Below, piece after piece: positions 10,794 through 35,435 of a stretch of 55,869 nucleotides of DNA. The DNA comes from Parcubacteria group bacterium M6-OD1-4 (GTDB lineage: Bacteria; Patescibacteriota; Patescibacteriia; Patescibacteriales; UBA12465). The stretch is taken from the NCBI GenBank assembly GCA_003056205.1, contig LSNS01000004.1:1-55869 (forward strand), in the 5' to 3' direction. A program made the translations under genes and the position numbers. A model generated the notes under the pieces. That model was not told the origin of the DNA, searched no databases, and was given only the letters and a program-made list of their open reading frames with translations. Numbering within the stretch: the stretch's first letter is position 1; each line of letters starts with the position of its first letter.

Positions 10794-10817
10794 AAAATAG
10801 CTAATATTAGCTATTTT
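10794..10817. terminator. Bidirectional terminator between xer and the M23 gene
   Basis: A perfect 24-base palindrome whose arms are AAAATAGCTAAT and ATTAGCTATTTT. The A-rich outer left arm and T-rich outer right arm give a U-tract in either direction. It lies between two convergent genes. Confidence 0.75.
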
Positions 10818-15891: not shown

Positions 15892-15922
15892 AAAAAGACT
15901 CTTAATTACTAGAGTCTTTTTT
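15892..15922. terminator. Bidirectional terminator between corA-like and DUF4012 genes
   Basis: The arms AAAAAGACTCT (15892-15902) and AGAGTCTTTTT (15911-15921) pair perfectly over an 8-base loop, with U-tracts in both directions. It lies between convergent genes. Confidence 0.85.
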
Positions 15923-22294: not shown

Positions 22295-22343
22295 AAAAAA
22301 CGCTTTAGTTATTTTATAAATATTTATATAAAATAACTAAAGC
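22295..22343 (-). terminator. Terminator after the small secreted protein gene
   Basis: A perfect 17-base-pair stem (GCTTTAGTTATTTTATA and its complement, 22302-22318 with 22327-22343) with an 8-base loop. On the minus strand it is followed by a run of U residues. It lies 20 bases after the stop of the gene at 22364. Confidence 0.85.
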
Positions 22344-22363: not shown

Positions 22364-22768
22364 TTACCTAACAACTATCCATCTTTTGGCTGCTCCAGGA
22401 ATTAATTTTCCGTTTTTAAACAAAAATCGGTTTTTGACAATATTTCGGACAAAACGTTGGTTTTGCCGGGGAGTACCAATATACCGATAACAATGTTTAA
22501 AAATTGGTTTTAAAATTTTTTCCCCACTACTAGACCAGTAGGGCTTCAATTTTCCGTCAAAAATAATTACTCCTTGCTTACAAAGTGGTAAAATAATATT
22601 TTCATAACGTGAACGATATTGTGTTGGTATTTTTAGAACTTTTAAAATTTGAATAACATTCATTTTTAGAAGTTCTTGGTTGGTGTAAGTCTTCATTTTT
22701 TGAGCAAAACTTGTGCTCGGAATGACAAACAGAAATACCAATAAAAATAAAATTACAATTTTTTTCAT
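22364..22768 (-). CDS. Small secreted basic protein, family unknown
   Basis: A 134-residue protein with a clear Sec signal peptide (residues 1-22, cleavage near SFAQ). The mature part is strongly basic and contains QYRSRYENIILPLCKQGV, two Cys in the mature chain, and a basic tail (VKNRFLFKNGKLIPGAAKRW). I recognise no family. It could be an envelope-binding or extracellular protein. The gene is monocistronic, with its own promoter (22897-22925), a leader of about 120 bases with a long inverted repeat, and a strong terminator. Confidence 0.75.
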   Translation of the reverse strand: MKKIVILFLLVFLFVIPSTSFAQKMKTYTNQELLKMNVIQILKVLKIPTQYRSRYENIILPLCKQGVIIFDGKLKPYWSSSGEKILKPIFKHCYRYIGTPRQNQRFVRNIVKNRFLFKNGKLIPGAAKRWIVVR

Positions 22769-22933: not shown

Positions 22934-22967
22934 AAATAAAAAGGATTAATCACAACGATTAATCCTT
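22934..22967 (-). terminator. Terminator after the HAM1-like gene
   Basis: The arms AAGGATTAATC and GATTAATCCTT (22941-22951 with 22957-22967) pair over a 5-base loop, followed by a U-rich tract on the minus strand. It lies 24 bases beyond the stop at 22991. Confidence 0.85.
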
Positions 22968-24245: not shown

Positions 24246-26759
24246 TTATCTACTTGCTCCACTATAGGCAATAGCGCGAACAATATTCCAAGCTAAAGAA
24301 TTAACCGGAGCATGTTCATAGACGCTTTTAAAAGTTCTAATAGCTTGTTCCTCGCTGTGTAAATTACGTTTTAAGGGTCGTAAACCATAAGCAATCAAAG
24401 TGATAGCATTAGCATCATGGCTATTATTCATATCTGCGGGACGATTATAAACCTTAATAAATTCTGATTTAGCTTCACTAATTGCCTGAGGGCTAGTAGC
24501 CCCTGGCCAACGACCATTAGCAATCTTTAAAACATCTGACCAATTAGCAGTGGTGGTTGGTAAATGACCATAAGCTTCTAAATAAGAACCGATTACACCA
24601 GCACGTTCTCCCGCCCCTAATTTTAAAGCATCTTTAGTGCCATAAGTGATAAAATAAGTTAAATTATCTTTATCAGTATTTGTTAAATTAGTATTTTTTA
24701 AATATTTTGCTAAGTATTTTTGATCGGTCAATTGCTCCTGGGCGGAACTTCTCGGGGTCTGAACAGCGCTTAAAATTGAATTAAGGTTACTACTAGAAAT
24801 TAATTGAGATTGATGAGCAATAGCGACTAACATCGCTTGTGCTTGATTCTTAACTGACTGCTGAGAATTGCTGGAAGATTTTGTTGCTGATTGATTACTA
24901 GAGCTATTAATTTTCACCGCCAAAGAAGCACAACTATTAGTTGCCGAACAAATTGTCAAAACCGCAGAACCTGTTGTTTTGCCAGACAAACTAAGTTGCG
25001 AACTGCTGACTTGGGCTTTAACAATTGTCGGATTAGAATTTGCGGATAAATAATAATTACTACTTAAACCTCCGGATAAAGTAATACTTAGATTCTGTCC
25101 AACAGAAATAATCGGATTATTTTGACTGAAACTTAAAGGTTGATTAGAGCTATTGTTAGCGCTTACTGTTAAATAGAGAGTTTGACATTGACCGCCACTT
25201 TGACAAATTAGAGCATTGGCTGTTCCCGCTTTTTGAGCCGAAATATCTAATTTTGCTCCCGTTAATTTAATGCTGGCTACATCCTGACCATTGCTACTAG
25301 AAAGATAATAACCACCATTACCATAAATACTAACTTGAGCACTACTGCCAACTTTTAATTTTAAATTATTATTACTAAAAGATAATTGCTTGTTAGAACT
25401 AAGGCCATTAACTAAAACAGCTAACTGGGTACAAGCTCCGCCAGCAGAACAGACATCAATTGTTCCTGAACCAGCCTTAATACCATTTATAGTTAAAATA
25501 TTATTCTGTAAATTAGTTTGGAAAATAGTTTGTGCTTTCGTACTAGCGTTGGAAAGACTATAGGGTCGTGAACCACCAGAAACGGTAATACTAATCGCTT
25601 GACCAGCTCGTAACCAAAGATTATTTTGGCTAAGAGTAATTGGTCCACTAGTCGCATAACTAACGGTCGCTGTTAATGATCCGCAATTCCCATTACTAGC
25701 ACAAACAGTAATAGTTGCTGAACCAGTTCCCTGACCAACTAACGTTAATTGATTACTATTAGTAATACTTGCTTGAACCACTGCCGAATTAGAATTGGTA
25801 GAAACATTATAGCTACTACCACCATTGAGAGAGATATTAACACTTTGACCAATCAGGAAATTCGGATTTGTTTGACTAAAAGTCAAGGCCGTTGAACTAA
25901 TATTACCAACCTGAGCGTTGATAATACCACAAGAGCTAAGATCTGCTGAACAAACTGTTAAGGACGCTGAACCATTATTAGCTAGTGCTTTTAAATCAAT
26001 AACTGTTCCCTGAAGACTGGCAGAAATAACACGAGGATTAGAATTATTTAAAATTGAATAGTTTGCGGTACTCTGAGCATTAAGAATGGAAACTAAAGAA
26101 TGTTGTCCAGCAGCAACTGTTAAATTGCTCTGGCTAAAAGTCAAAACTTGAGCACCAGAATTTTGAATAGTAATATAAGTACTTGCACAATTAGAAGTAG
26201 TTCCTAAAGTACAAACTGTGGCTACGGTTTGACCAAAAGAATTAGCCAAAACAGTAATTTGTTGACCAAGTATATTAATATTAGCAATTTGCGGATTAGA
26301 ATTATTTAGTAAATAAAGAATTTTATTACCAGTATTAGAAACTGTTAAGTTAGTAGATTGTCCAACTTTTAACACAACACTTGTCGGACTGAGAGCAATT
26401 GCGCCATTACTGGAAGTGCTAATTGGCCAAGTTACTGAATTAGAAGATTGCTTATTAATAATCACATGGACTGAATCACTAGGAGTAATATTATACTCCC
26501 CAGCTTTAATAATTACTGTATAAGCACCAGCGGAATCAGTTTTTCCAAGATATTGTAAATGAGAACTACCATCAGTTTGGTGATAATATAATAAAACATT
26601 ATTATTAGCTAAGGCACCGCTAACTACTAGCTGAACATTACCGCTCGTACTCGTTGTACTGAGTTTTAAGTTGGGAGCACTCGCTTGACTAACGCTAGTA
26701 AAAATTAAAAAAGCTGAAACAATTGCTATTGGGACAGTAAGAAATAGTAGCTTTTTCAT
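24246..26759 (-). CDS. Secreted Ig-like (BIG2-type) repeat protein with novel C-terminal domain
   Basis: An 837-residue exported protein. The signal peptide is at 1-27. A beta domain lies at about 28-115. Six Ig-like repeats of about 85 residues follow, each starting with a variant of LSFSQNNLxLxVGQxxxI and ending with a Cys pair (VCxxxxxxC), which suggests a conserved disulfide loop in every repeat. A Ser/Asn/Gln-rich linker (about 620-660) leads to a helical C-terminal domain of about 170 residues with Trp, Tyr and His (ANWSDVLKIANGRWPG, then RPADMNNSHDANAITLIAYG). I do not recognise this last domain. There is no LPXTG or membrane anchor. An adhesin or surface-layer role is inferred. Confidence 0.75.
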   Translation of the reverse strand: MKKLLFLTVPIAIVSAFLIFTSVSQASAPNLKLSTTSTSGNVQLVVSGALANNNVLLYYHQTDGSSHLQYLGKTDSAGAYTVIIKAGEYNITPSDSVHVIINKQSSNSVTWPISTSSNGAIALSPTSVVLKVGQSTNLTVSNTGNKILYLLNNSNPQIANINILGQQITVLANSFGQTVATVCTLGTTSNCASTYITIQNSGAQVLTFSQSNLTVAAGQHSLVSILNAQSTANYSILNNSNPRVISASLQGTVIDLKALANNGSASLTVCSADLSSCGIINAQVGNISSTALTFSQTNPNFLIGQSVNISLNGGSSYNVSTNSNSAVVQASITNSNQLTLVGQGTGSATITVCASNGNCGSLTATVSYATSGPITLSQNNLWLRAGQAISITVSGGSRPYSLSNASTKAQTIFQTNLQNNILTINGIKAGSGTIDVCSAGGACTQLAVLVNGLSSNKQLSFSNNNLKLKVGSSAQVSIYGNGGYYLSSSNGQDVASIKLTGAKLDISAQKAGTANALICQSGGQCQTLYLTVSANNSSNQPLSFSQNNPIISVGQNLSITLSGGLSSNYYLSANSNPTIVKAQVSSSQLSLSGKTTGSAVLTICSATNSCASLAVKINSSSNQSATKSSSNSQQSVKNQAQAMLVAIAHQSQLISSSNLNSILSAVQTPRSSAQEQLTDQKYLAKYLKNTNLTNTDKDNLTYFITYGTKDALKLGAGERAGVIGSYLEAYGHLPTTTANWSDVLKIANGRWPGATSPQAISEAKSEFIKVYNRPADMNNSHDANAITLIAYGLRPLKRNLHSEEQAIRTFKSVYEHAPVNSLAWNIVRAIAYSGASR

Positions 26760-27900: not shown

Positions 27901-28572
27901 TTAATAATCTTTTTTAATAATTCCATCTTTTAACCAAATAACACGATCGACATATTGTTCATCATCTGGTTCATGGGTAACCATAATAATAGTTTGACCA
28001 ATTTCTTTGTTTAATTCTCTAAATAATTTTATCACAGTTAATGAAGCTTCACTGTCTAGATTAGCGGTTGGTTCATCAGCAAATAAAATTAAAGGGTCAT
28101 TAACTAAAGCTCTAGCAATGGCTACTCTTTGTTGTTCACCTCCTGATAATTCTTGGGGTAAATGATTTAATTTTTTGCCTAAGCCAACTTTTTTTAGCAT
28201 CTTTGCTGCTTTTTTAAGATATTCCTTTTTAGGAATATTATCTAACATTAATGGTAAAAAAACTGACTCTAAGGCTGTTAATTCTGGTAAAAGAGCATAA
28301 GATTGAAAAACATAACCTAACTTTTTTAATCTAAATTGAGATTTTTGTTTTTCAGAGAGAGACATTAAATCAATGCCATCAATAATAATTTTCCCAGAAC
28401 TTGGAGTATCTAAAAGACCAAGCTGATGTAAAAGAGTTGATTTTCCCGAACCACTTCTGCCCATTAAAGCTAAAAATTCTCCTTTTTTAACTTCAAAATT
28501 AATATTCTTTAAAACTTTAACCGGCACTAAAGCTTCATAAGTTTTTTTTAAATTTTTAACTTCAATAATCAT
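27901..28572 (-). CDS. ABC transporter ATPase, LolD/MacB type
   Basis: The ATPase of a mechanotransmission-type ABC exporter. Walker A GRSGSGKST is at 38-46. The Q-loop (YVFQSYALLPEL), signature LSGGEQQRV and Walker B LILFADEPTANLD are present, followed by the D-loop and the switch His in MVTHEPDDE. The total of 223 residues is standard. Its partner is the FtsX-like permease that ends 20 bases upstream. Confidence 0.93.
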   Translation of the reverse strand: MIIEVKNLKKTYEALVPVKVLKNINFEVKKGEFLALMGRSGSGKSTLLHQLGLLDTPSSGKIIIDGIDLMSLSEKQKSQFRLKKLGYVFQSYALLPELTALESVFLPLMLDNIPKKEYLKKAAKMLKKVGLGKKLNHLPQELSGGEQQRVAIARALVNDPLILFADEPTANLDSEASLTVIKLFRELNKEIGQTIIMVTHEPDDEQYVDRVIWLKDGIIKKDY

Positions 28573-28591: not shown

Positions 28592-29803
28592 TTAACCCCA
28601 AATAGAATTTAGAATACTTCTTTTAGCCCCCTTATAAGCTGGGAAAAATCCTCCAATTAAAGCAGCACTTAAAAGACTTATGTTACTAATTTTAATTATA
28701 TTAAAAGTAATTTTCAAAGACACCCAACCAACTGGAAAATCTAATGGATTAGAAATAAAAAGAGGACGAACAACAAAAAGAATTAAAGATATTCCAAGTA
28801 AAACTCCAACTAAACCATAAAAAAGAGCTTGAATTACAAAATAAGCAACAATGGTCCCCTCTCTCATACCAATTGCTTTTAAAATACCAATTTGTTTTCT
28901 TTTATTAACTACACTGACAAAAATAATAATAAAAATAGTAATTCCAGCAACAATAGTTCCAATTGCTCCTAAAATAATGCTAATCATGTCAAAACTTTTA
29001 CTAGCACCTGAAGTAAAGCCCATCAGAGCACTCCACTTTTTAATATCTTCAGTTTTAAACCCTGATCTTCTAATTTCTCTAATAACCATACCTTCGCTGC
29101 TAATATTTTTAGTCTTTACCAATATTTCTGATGACCGATTATAAACACGAAGAACTGATTCCATTTCCCCTTTAGTAATAAAAGCACTTTGATTAACTTG
29201 AGTGTTTTTAGTTTTAAAAATTCCTTTAACCGTATAGGTTCTCTTAACACCATTACTAAAATAAACATCAACTTGATCACCAACTTTAACACCTAAACTT
29301 AAATATTCTAAATCAGAGCCATAAGCTCCAGAAATATCTCTACCGAGTATAATTTGGTTACGATCAGTCGCTTTTAAATAAGAACCAGCAACCATTGATT
29401 TATAAATATCTGTTACTTTTTCTTCTTGCTTAGGATTAATGGATTTTATAGTCCAACGTCCTTTTTGGATATCATTACCATCTCTATTCTTATCATATTT
29501 TATAATTGCTTGGTTAACATAGTGAGTAGCGACAGCTTGAACGCCAGGCAATGAAGAAAGCCGTTGTTCAGCATGATTCTTTTTAATATAAATATTATTA
29601 ACGGCAGGCGTAATAACAATATTACTATATTGATTGTTAATAGCCTCATTATTAATTGCTTGAACTATACCTCCAAAAATAGAAGAGACAAAAACCAAAT
29701 TAACATAAGCCAGGGTCATAATTAGAATAGTCATGAATAAAGTTCCCTTGTTCCCTCTTTTAATAGAATGGAAAGCTAAAAATAATGATGTTTTTAAATT
29801 CAT
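28592..29803 (-). CDS. FtsX/MacB-like ABC permease
   Basis: One N-terminal transmembrane helix (about 20-45) is followed by a periplasmic-type MacB core domain (about 50-260), then three C-terminal helices with the FtsX signature (VVNKRKQIGILKAIGMREG). The total of 403 residues is usual. It couples to the LolD-like ATPase downstream and follows the MarR gene by 21 bases. Confidence 0.88.
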   Translation of the reverse strand: MNLKTSLFLAFHSIKRGNKGTLFMTILIMTLAYVNLVFVSSIFGGIVQAINNEAINNQYSNIVITPAVNNIYIKKNHAEQRLSSLPGVQAVATHYVNQAIIKYDKNRDGNDIQKGRWTIKSINPKQEEKVTDIYKSMVAGSYLKATDRNQIILGRDISGAYGSDLEYLSLGVKVGDQVDVYFSNGVKRTYTVKGIFKTKNTQVNQSAFITKGEMESVLRVYNRSSEILVKTKNISSEGMVIREIRRSGFKTEDIKKWSALMGFTSGASKSFDMISIILGAIGTIVAGITIFIIIFVSVVNKRKQIGILKAIGMREGTIVAYFVIQALFYGLVGVLLGISLILFVVRPLFISNPLDFPVGWVSLKITFNIIKISNISLLSAALIGGFFPAYKGAKRSILNSIWG

Positions 29804-29824: not shown

Positions 29825-30253
29825 TTAAATTTTAATTTTTCTAATTAGTTTGGTAAAATTTTCTAATTCTTCAATTTTAAAATCTTTGAAACCAGCACTA
29901 AAAACGTTAAAATAGTTAGATTTAAATTTTTTAAATCTCGCTTTAGCGCTCGAACTTAAAATAATATGAACTGAACGTCGATCTTGAATATCTTGGTAAC
30001 GACAAACTAATTTATAATCCACTAAGACGTTGATAAGTTGAGTAATAGCTCCAGGGGTAACTTTAAAAAATTGAGCTAAATCTTTAACGCTTTTTCCCTG
30101 CTTGGTTTCAGCTATCAAAAATAAAATCATCACTTGCCGACGATTAAGTTTTAAATCGCCAAAAGGAAATTTTTGTTTTTTATGTAGATTTTTAATAACT
30201 TCTATTGATTTGATAGCTAATTCTTGAAGTAATTTTTGTTTATTTTTAGTCAT
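29825..30253 (-). CDS. MarR-family transcriptional regulator
   Basis: A dimeric winged-helix regulator of 142 residues. Residues about 35-105 carry the wHTH (GKSVKDLAQFFKVTPGAITQ, then LVDYKLVCRYQDIQDRRSV). The wing motif DRRSVHIILS is typical of the family. N- and C-terminal helices form the dimer interface. It sits between the two ABC gene sets in one co-directional run, so it probably controls the whole run through the palindrome at the start of the adaptor gene (35404-35426). Its ligand is unknown. Confidence 0.9.
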   Translation of the reverse strand: MTKNKQKLLQELAIKSIEVIKNLHKKQKFPFGDLKLNRRQVMILFLIAETKQGKSVKDLAQFFKVTPGAITQLINVLVDYKLVCRYQDIQDRRSVHIILSSSAKARFKKFKSNYFNVFSAGFKDFKIEELENFTKLIRKIKI

Positions 30254-30288: not shown

Positions 30289-31545
30289 TTACTCATGACT
30301 TAGAGCTTCTACTGGATCTAGTTTAGCGGCGCTATAGGCAGGAAAAATACCGAAACCAATTCCAATAACAGCCGAGACGCCAAAAGCTAAGGCCATGGCA
30401 TAAAATGGTACCGAAAAGATCCACACTAAATTATTATATCTGGCAATTATCGCTACCAAATAGCCTAATAGGCTACCAAAAATAATACCTATTACTCCCC
30501 CGAGAATAGTAATAATGACTGATTCTACTAAAAACTCAGTTAAAATATCTGAATTTTTTGCTCCCAGAGCTTTTTTTAGACCAATCTCTGCTGTTCGTTC
30601 AGTCACTACTACGTACATAATATTCATAATGCCAATACCACCAACAATTAAAGAAATAGCCGCAATTGCAATGAGTAAAATGGTAATGCCATCAAAAATG
30701 GTATTAAAGGTACCCATGGCTTGCGCTTGCGTCTCTACTAAAAAATCATCTTTAGCGGGATTATTAATGCGATGATTTTGTCTGAGAAGAAGGCGAATAT
30801 TATGAGCCGTAAAAGCTCCTTGATTAGCATTTTTAAGTTGAACAATAGCCATCAACAAGTAGTTAATGCCCAAAATCTTTTTCTGGGCAGTTTTGAGGGG
30901 AATATAAAGCATATCATCGCTTCCACCTCCTAAAACTCCAACCGGATTATAAACACCAATCACTTTAAAATTTAAATTACCTAAACGAACTATTTTCCCC
31001 ACCGGATTAAAGCCATTACCGAAGAGGTCTTTTGCTAAAGTACTTCCTAAAATAGCAACTTGTGCTTCGCCAGCATCTTCAGTACTACTAAAAAATCGTC
31101 CATATTTTAAAGTACTTTTATCAATTTGAAAACGGGCGGCTGAAGTTCCATAAAATAAGGTGTTTTTGCTGACATCACGATAACTAATAACTTTCTGACC
31201 AACAACCATTCCATAAGCATTAACGACATTAGGAATTTGTTTAATATCTTGTAAATCACGGTTTTTGAAAGTGGTAATAGCGACCGATGAAATAGCCCGC
31301 CCCATATCAGCACTCATTGCTCCAGCATTACGGTTTTTAGTAGTTGGCGGAACACGAGTTTCAATAAATAAAGTATTGGTACCGTAAACTTGTAATTGAG
31401 AATTAATTAAACTTCGAAAACCAGCACCAGCGGATAAAACTAAAACTACCGTCGCAATACCAATCATAATTCCCAAGGTTGTTAAAATCGTTCGCATCGG
31501 GTTAGCAAGTAATACTTTCAGCGCTTGTTTTAATATTTGATACAT
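30289..31545 (-). CDS. MacB-like ABC permease (second of a pair)
   Basis: 418 residues with an N-terminal transmembrane helix, a MacB periplasmic core domain and three C-terminal helices with the FtsX motif (TERTAEIGLKKALGAKNSD) and the ending LDPVEALSHE. It is paralogous to the gene at 31555 and only 9 bases downstream of it, which suggests a heterodimeric exporter driven by the ATPase at 32847. Confidence 0.92.
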   Translation of the reverse strand: MYQILKQALKVLLANPMRTILTTLGIMIGIATVVLVLSAGAGFRSLINSQLQVYGTNTLFIETRVPPTTKNRNAGAMSADMGRAISSVAITTFKNRDLQDIKQIPNVVNAYGMVVGQKVISYRDVSKNTLFYGTSAARFQIDKSTLKYGRFFSSTEDAGEAQVAILGSTLAKDLFGNGFNPVGKIVRLGNLNFKVIGVYNPVGVLGGGSDDMLYIPLKTAQKKILGINYLLMAIVQLKNANQGAFTAHNIRLLLRQNHRINNPAKDDFLVETQAQAMGTFNTIFDGITILLIAIAAISLIVGGIGIMNIMYVVVTERTAEIGLKKALGAKNSDILTEFLVESVIITILGGVIGIIFGSLLGYLVAIIARYNNLVWIFSVPFYAMALAFGVSAVIGIGFGIFPAYSAAKLDPVEALSHE

Positions 31546-31554
31546 AATAGTTCT

Positions 31555-32826
31555 TTATTCATAACGCAAAGCTTCAATAGGGTCTAAACGAGCGGCTTTT
31601 AGAGCAGGATATAACCCAAATAATACCCCACTCAAGATTGAGACTCCAATTGCTAAAATAATAGAAAGTGGGGAGATAACAAAGGCCCAATCATAACCAA
31701 GATGAATCATTAATAAAAATAAACCATAGGAAACTAGGGCGCCGACAATAATACCAATTAAACCTCCGAGAGTTGTGAGAATGACCGCTTCTAAAAGAAA
31801 TTGTTTTAAAATAGTATGATTAGTAGCTCCGAGAGCTTTTCGTAAACCAACCTCTCGAGTTCGTTCACCAATAGTAGCCATCATAATATTCATAATTCCA
31901 ATTCCACCGACTAATAATGAAATAGCAGCCATTGCCGTTAGAAATAAGCTTAAGGCATTCGTGATGGTTGATAATAGTGCCACCGCACTAGCCATATTAC
32001 GAATAGTATAATCAATTTCTGAGGCAGTTTGGATATGATGACGTCGATTAAGAACATTTTTAATATCTTGAATAGTTTGCTGAATATTAGCACTTGAGTC
32101 TACTTTGATATTAATTGTTCGTAAATAATGAATACCCAATAGTTGTTGTTGCCCAATCTTTAAGGGAATAATTATTTGATCATCCTGATCCTGGAAAAAA
32201 GCCGTTCCCCGAGAGACAACGGTACCAATTACTCGTAAAGGAACACCACCGGCAATATTACTATTAGCACTTTTTACTCTAATAACCTGTCCAATCGGAT
32301 TAACAGCACTATGAGAAAAGAGTTCTTTAACTACCGTGGAACCTAAAACTGCGACATTAGCAGCGCTTTTATTCTCTTGGGCATTAAAAAATCGTCCCGC
32401 TGACATTTCCACATGAACTACTTTTGGATAATAAGCATCAGTAGCAGTGAAATTAGTATCAATACTCTTATTTCTCCAAGTCACTGTGGTCTTCCCTAAA
32501 ACATTAGCATTAACTGCTGAAGCATGAGGAACTTGATTAGTGCTCCGTAAAGCTTGAGCATCACTATTAACTAAAGTTGTCACGACAATACCAAACATCT
32601 GGGCTGGTGGTCCTTTTTCATTACTTTTTCCGGGTTGCACACTTAATAAATTAGAACCTAATTTAGTCACTTGGCCCAGGACAAGAGCTTTTGCCCCTGC
32701 CCCCAGAGCAATAATAATAATGACTCCCGCAACACCAATCATAATACCCAGGATAGTTAAAAAAGAACGTCCTTTTTTAGCAAAAAGAATTTTAAGTACA
32801 AATTTAATGCTCACAAATAAATTCAC
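31555..32826 (-). CDS. MacB-like ABC permease (first of a pair)
   Basis: 423 residues, same architecture as its neighbour at 30289: N-terminal helix with LTILGIMIGVAGVIIIIALG, periplasmic core domain, three C-terminal helices with GERTREVGLRKALGATN and the ending LDPIEALRYE. The two differ enough in the periplasmic domain to serve different contacts. Works with the ATPase at 32847 and the adaptor at 33611. Confidence 0.93.
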   Translation of the reverse strand: MNLFVSIKFVLKILFAKKGRSFLTILGIMIGVAGVIIIIALGAGAKALVLGQVTKLGSNLLSVQPGKSNEKGPPAQMFGIVVTTLVNSDAQALRSTNQVPHASAVNANVLGKTTVTWRNKSIDTNFTATDAYYPKVVHVEMSAGRFFNAQENKSAANVAVLGSTVVKELFSHSAVNPIGQVIRVKSANSNIAGGVPLRVIGTVVSRGTAFFQDQDDQIIIPLKIGQQQLLGIHYLRTINIKVDSSANIQQTIQDIKNVLNRRHHIQTASEIDYTIRNMASAVALLSTITNALSLFLTAMAAISLLVGGIGIMNIMMATIGERTREVGLRKALGATNHTILKQFLLEAVILTTLGGLIGIIVGALVSYGLFLLMIHLGYDWAFVISPLSIILAIGVSILSGVLFGLYPALKAARLDPIEALRYE

Positions 32827-32846: not shown

Positions 32847-33563
32847 TTATTTAATTAATTCTGTATTGGCAGTAGCAAAAACACGCTTATGTACGGCTTG
32901 ATCAGAGATAATTGCACCATCTTTAATCTTAATAATTCGTTTGGCGTGATTAGCCGTCTCTGCTTCGTGAGTTACTAAAATAATCGTCCGCCCCTGTTTA
33001 TTAAGTTGTTGCAAAAGATATAAAACTGTATTACCCGATTTAGAATCTAAATTACCAGTTGGCTCATCGGCAAAAATAACTGCTGGATTGGTTACTAAAG
33101 CCCGAGCAATAGCGACTCGCTGTTTTTCACCACCAGAAATTTGGTTAGTATAATAATTTAAACGTGATCCTAAACCAACAGACTCTAAGGCTTTCCGAGC
33201 TAAGAGATCATGATTTTTTTTCTTGCTATATAACAAAGGTAATTTAACATTATCCAAAACTGTTGTCCGTGGTAAGAGATTGAAGGCTTGAAAAACAAAG
33301 CCCACTTCTTCATTTCTTAATTTCGCTAGATAATTATCATCAAAATTTTCAACATTTTTTCCTTTAAATTTATAATCTCCAGTACTTTGACGTTCTAAAA
33401 AACCTAAAATATGCATCAATGTCGTTTTACCACTTCCCGATGGCCCCATAATCGTCACAAATTCTTGTTCATTAATTTCAAAACTAACCTGGTGTAAAAC
33501 CGGGGTACTTAAACCATTGCTTTGATAGGTTTTTGAGAGATTGGAAATTTTTATTAAACTCAT
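32847..33563 (-). CDS. ABC transporter ATPase, MacB/LolD type
   Basis: Energises the paired permeases. Walker [11 protein letters not shown]-loop ([10 protein letters not shown]), signature ISGGEKQRV, Walker [13 protein letters not shown] and the switch His (LVTHEAET) are all present. A start at 33563 ([13 protein letters not shown]) is preferred over an ATG at 33602, because it matches the normal beginning of this family. The upstream ATG would add 13 untypical residues. It is just downstream of the adaptor gene. Confidence 0.93.
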
Positions 33564-33610
33564 ACCATTAAAATTAAATAAATTACAATTTGGTATTTGC
33601 AAACTTTAAT

Positions 33611-35380: not shown

Positions 35381-35435
35381 AAAAGTAATTAAGTTTAATT
35401 ACTTTTAGTTTAGTTGCTAAACTAAATTTAGTCAA
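35381..35435 (-). promoter_or_regulatory. Promoter of the export operon with two overlapping palindromes (MarR operator candidates)
   Basis: On the minus strand there is a -35 TTGACT (35430-35435), a 17-base spacer and a -10 TAAACT (35407-35412). The -10 lies inside a perfect palindrome (arms TTTAGTTTAG and CTAAACTAAA, 3-base centre, 35404-35426). A second near-continuous palindrome (arms AAAAGTAATTAA and TTAATTACTTTT, 2-base centre, 35381-35406) covers the expected start of transcription. A MarR gene is encoded in the same run, so repression by MarR is the simplest reading. Confidence 0.7.

Follow-up and report, generated by a model that had tools for sequence, protein, structure and literature searches.

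MepR of Staphylococcus aureus controls a MATE pump, and its gene is the first of its operon, mepRAB. This repressor of the MarR family is encoded together with the export gene and is self-repressive, with sites that overlap the mepA -35 and -10 (PMC3617543); the sites are pseudo-palindromic and carry a GTTAG motif (PMC3617543, PMC8044140). In Streptococcus agalactiae, another MarR-family repressor, the heme-responsive PefR, controls the heme efflux operon pefRCD through an AT-rich pseudo-palindrome, TAGTT...AACTA (PMC8044140). YknWXYZ of Bacillus and Spr0693-0695 of Streptococcus pneumoniae are MacAB-like exporters of bacteria without an outer membrane, each with an adaptor, a separate ATPase and a MacB-type permease encoded in one operon (PMC5985334, PMC5768738). 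Adaptor-bearing exporters of the MacB family, which give protection from peptides and antibiotics, are found in bacteria that lack an outer membrane (PMC5985334).

The window, that is, the whole stretch of 55,869 nucleotides that was analysed, lies on contig C10 of a 785-kb genome; its G+C content is 32%. Its named relatives are for the most part Candidatus Falkowbacteria (Patescibacteria), which are tiny and mostly uncultured bacteria, and to our knowledge the control of transcription in Patescibacteria has scarcely been studied by experiment, literature searches having surfaced nothing on it. Seven co-directional genes, separated by gaps of 8-35 bp, lie downstream of the promoter (Table 1). 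The original prediction described all seven as ABC-export genes; the run itself was correctly read, but six of its genes are of the ABC-export kind and the remaining one is the MarR gene. That the gene MARR encodes a MarR protein, as had been proposed, is borne out by winged-helix matches above the Pfam cut-offs (PF12802, 3.4e-10, 40.4 bits against 27; PF01047, 5.9e-09, 36.1 bits against 24.6), by invariant winged-helix residues including DRR, and by a family profile that matches MarR structures, those of MepR among them. No named MarR subfamily (FabT, AdcR, SlyA and others) scored over its NCBIfam curated cut-off, the best reaching 30 bits against 62-240. The combination in one operon of MacB_PCD and FtsX permeases, an ABC ATPase and a MacA/HlyD-type adaptor places the exporter in the MacB family, and the MacAB-like structures 5xu1 and 5xu0 match PERM1 and ADAPT. 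It is not MacB proper, the fused ATPase-permease of the NCBIfam PRK10535 equivalog (cut-off 966 bits): the genes are split and score 205-240 bits each. The outer tunnel, which the original prediction had listed among the unknowns, is probably absent and is not to be expected, since neither a TolC-type OEP (PF02321) nor LpxC was matched in the present genome or in the 15 others of the genus that were searched, the positive-control genomes being detected.

Table 1. Promoter elements, palindromes and genes of the export operon (positions in the window)
Feature	Coordinates	Strand	Remarks
-35 hexamer TTGACT	35430..35435	-	TTGAC invariant at same place in 9 genomes
P1, predicted MarR operator, TTTAGTTTAG-CAA-CTAAACTAAA	35404..35426	-	perfect palindrome; kept in 9/9 MarR-bearing operons, missing from MarR-less ones
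-10 hexamer TAAACT	35407..35412	-	inside P1 right arm; TAAAAT in six relatives
P2, AAAAGTAATTAA-AC-TTAATTACTTTT, genome-specific 26-bp palindrome over predicted start, then T-rich stretch	35381..35406	-	possible AT-rich terminator of read-through RNA
ADAPT, MacA/HlyD-type adaptor, 585 aa	33611..35368	-	PF16576/PF13437; TIGR01730 149.9 bits, over cut-off; MacA structures
ATP1, MacB-type ATPase	32847..33602	-	PF00005; best NCBIfam match MacB
PERM1, MacB-type permease (MacB_PCD + FtsX)	31555..32826	-	domain matches; MacAB-like structure match
PERM2, MacB-type permease (MacB_PCD + FtsX)	30289..31545	-	domain and NCBIfam matches
MARR, MarR-family regulator, final gene of ancestral operon	29825..30253	-	Pfam PF12802, PF01047
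PERM3, LolC/E-like FtsX permease, separate module; behind MARR in present genome only	28592..29803	-	
ATP2, LolD-like ATPase, partner of PERM3	27901..28572	-	

The two promoter hexamers are 17 nt apart and, as had been predicted, the -10 box lies within one perfect palindrome and the expected start site within another. P1 comprises 10-bp arms about a 3-nt centre, 23 bp in all, and spans the spacer and the -10 box; P2 has 12-bp arms about a 2-nt centre, overlaps P1 by three bases and contains the expected start at about 35400. Two such palindromes were held by 15 of 20,000 first-order Markov sequences of the same composition as the 87-bp intergenic region, a statistic computed on the window only. 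Even with up to three mismatches allowed, neither palindrome recurs in the 785-kb genome. Alignment upstream of the adaptor orthologues separates the two: P1 is kept in all nine MarR-bearing genomes of the family, and P2 is perfect in the present genome only. Of the two, P1 therefore withstands the check on related genomes that the original prediction had set itself, and P2 does not. The nine MarR-bearing operons share the consensus TTGACa-4 nt-TTAnTTTAG-nnn-CTAAAmTAA upstream of ADAPT. In each of them the -10 box, TAAACT or TAAAAT, is supplied by the right arm of P1, always with a 17-nt spacing. Where full length, the ADAPT orthologues are only about 55-58% identical to that of the window, so that unconstrained DNA should be well diverged. 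Nevertheless, 16 of the 18 half-site positions are invariant among the nine genomes, and pairwise comparison gives 95% identity for the half-sites against 46% for the 3-nt centre and 50% for the downstream sequence. Such fixed arms about a variable centre are, on comparative grounds, the signature of a DNA site bound by a dimeric repressor.

The presence of P1 follows that of the MarR gene. Among 117 genomes the exact P1 pattern occurs at the adaptor promoter in 9/9 of those that bear the MarR gene, the pattern having been derived from these same nine promoters and the genomes being related to each other. Two close orthologous operons without MarR (G015 and G002) keep a promoter-like TAAAAT box, which in G002 reads TTGACA-17-TAAAAT, and lack the palindrome. 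In G015 a P-type ATPase gene follows PERM2 in place of MarR; in G002 the contig ends inside PERM2, and a search of the whole genome found no such MarR. G015 is nested within the MarR-bearing clade (supports 98/97 and 95/92), which points to joint loss, the MarR gene and the P1 site having probably disappeared together. Across the adaptor loci of named genomes the site is present in 7/7 with a 3' MarR gene and in 0/64 others (Fisher 7.5e-10), the seven positives being species already present in the first set; what this test adds is controls, not independent positives. The exact pattern was also found in five places elsewhere, inside reading frames in G004, G009, G013 and G024 and in a gap in G041, a genome of another family without such a MarR. 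A wider regulon built on these matches was rejected as chance-level, the reversed-pattern control giving four matches in the same 117 genomes. No other intergenic exact copy was seen in the MarR-bearing genomes, and given this single intergenic site per genome the regulon appears to consist of its own operon alone, with a regulator that looks local and self-repressing.

It is suggested, with a probability of roughly 0.88, that P1 serves as operator for the MarR repressor encoded in the operon itself and that the export operon is under negative autoregulation, the assignment of P1 as an operator being strong by comparison. A MarR dimer on the conserved element would cover the spacer and the -10 box and would thus block RNA polymerase from the promoter of the MacAB/YknXYZ-like export operon. 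Because MARR is within the operon, bound MarR would shut off its own gene too. A ligand, probably a small molecule or a peptide tied to the exported substrate, would free MarR from P1, and in the present genome PERM3 and ATP2, encoded behind MARR, would come under the same control. Conservation and co-occurrence lend the self-repressed operon of the original prediction good support for P1 and the operon's MarR, and not for P2, which would lie outside the MarR switch.

P2 calls for a different reading. In eight relatives the same place holds no perfect palindrome, G011 alone being borderline and imperfect (p 0.05). RNA read through from upstream would form an 11-bp stem over P2 (-7.0 kcal/mol) and then runs into a T-rich stretch with 12 T in the last 14 nt; the stem has a single G-C pair and the terminator consensus scan made no call. 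RNA begun at about 35400, in contrast, is without the P2 5' arm and has no fold. Five MarR-bearing relatives have a GC-rich hairpin and a T-run just upstream of the -35, whereas in the present genome the CYTH-like gene stops only 20 bp short of the -35, with no strong hairpin in between. Elsewhere in the window, AT-rich perfect palindromes at 10794-10817 and 15892-15921 lie between convergent genes and are likely bidirectional terminators, and a similar AT-rich palindrome stands at a gene 3' end (22941-22967). A perfect palindrome with 17-bp arms (22302-22343) follows just downstream of the minus-strand gene 22364-22768 and is itself followed by a T-run on the same strand (-20 kcal/mol).

The folding contrast, the kindred 3'-end palindromes and the upstream hairpins in relatives favour, tentatively, a read-through filter, that is, an AT-rich terminator that straddles the start site. 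Only read-through RNA from the upstream gene would carry both arms of P2 and terminate, and transcripts begun at the regulated promoter would lack the 5' arm and escape; P2 would then do the job of the normal terminator found upstream of the -35 in several relatives. The original prediction had raised the possibility of two repressors; on this reading MarR would bind P1, and P2 would be the operator of an unlinked regulator. The 12-bp arms of P2 are indeed perfect, differ in sequence from P1 and lie over the predicted start, and none of 400 shuffles equalled the palindrome. However, this is improbable for three reasons: first, P2 is not a significant palindrome at the same place in most relatives; second, an unlinked regulator would find no further copy of P2 in the genome; and third, P2 resembles the other AT-rich palindromes of the window at gene 3' ends. 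A second repressor is thus without support, and P2, if neither terminator nor operator, would be incidental or some other feature. P2 was also considered as a second MarR site and rejected, there being no TTAG half-site.

Given that the binding of MarR to P1 is itself a prediction, another regulator might bind P1 while MarR acts elsewhere. This is very unlikely: the presence and absence of P1 track the MarR gene, P1 has no exact counterpart in any other intergenic region of the MarR-bearing genomes, and no other regulator is known to co-occur with it. Least tenable is the proposal that P1 and P2 act as RNA hairpins in the adaptor mRNA leader, through attenuation or translational control. Although a transcript spanning both folds (-12.6 kcal/mol, z -3.4), P1 holds the -10 and precedes the start, which rules it out as an RNA element of the operon's own transcript, and the RNA from about 35400 onward is unfolded (0 kcal/mol). 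Moreover, the pairing of P1 positions 14 and 28 is broken in five of the nine genomes with the -10 retained, which puts the constraint on DNA rather than on an RNA stem.

The order ADAPT-ATP1-PERM1-PERM2-MARR, with MARR last, recurs in eight other genomes (G001, G003, G004, G008, G011, G012, G018 and G033; in G018 the set is split over two contigs). MarR midway in the run is therefore true of the present genome only, where PERM3-ATP2 is arranged behind MARR, and is not the design of what is elsewhere a five-gene operon. PERM3 is present in 8/117 genomes, the present one counted, and outside it PERM3-ATP2 occurs as an adaptor-less pair, accompanied by an adaptor of its own or, in G008, following a distinct MarR gene; by this distribution it is a separate, patchily distributed module. 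In G011, MARR is directly followed by an orthologue of the window gene 24246-26759; in the present genome, PERM3-ATP2 and two small genes lie between, and these were either gained here or lost in G011. The product of the gene 24246-26759 is a large secreted protein with repeats, in which PF13629 (8.3e-10) marks a pilus-formation N-terminal-like domain; it could be linked to the exporter in view of the orthologue directly behind MARR in G011.

Other MarR genes beside MacB-like operons in Patescibacteria have promoter palindromes of their own. Upstream of MarR genes of a Doudnabacteria type, which precede the adaptor, lie perfect palindromes with 12-bp arms (L157:6038-6063, L160:5074-5100) whose half-sites, ATGTTAG...CTAACAT, are related to the GTTAG motif of MepR. 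A second MarR group has TTAGAnnnTCTAA just downstream of the -10 (L070:6500-6536; L066, L067 and L068 upstream of MarR), its MarR gene preceding PERM3-ATP2 in G008 and the adaptor in G019, G027 and G032. MarR may have come to be combined with a MacB-like operon on more than one occasion, its gene being either first or last. In G005, of the same genus, a MarR gene is followed by two full-length ABC transporter genes, an exporter of a different type (L069:1189-5250). The present locus, with one clearly conserved operator and natural controls that lack both MarR and operator, offers a clean test case, and the inducing ligand would hint at the cargo of a widespread exporter.

In summary, the locus is genuine and well conserved and belongs to a well-known kind, and the sequence comparisons support an ordinary self-regulated export operon. 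The half-site of P1 shares TTAG with the MepR motif; here, unlike mepRAB, the exporter is a MacB-type ABC exporter, the MarR gene is last and there is one site. Compared with YknWXYZ and Spr0693-0695, there are two different MacB-type permeases, a longer adaptor (585 aa) and a linked MarR. The site sequence, the exporter type and the likely ligand differ from those of PefR-pefRCD, and heme sensing is not indicated. Self-regulated MarR export operons are thus already known, and what is new is a putative case in Falkowbacteria with comparative support.
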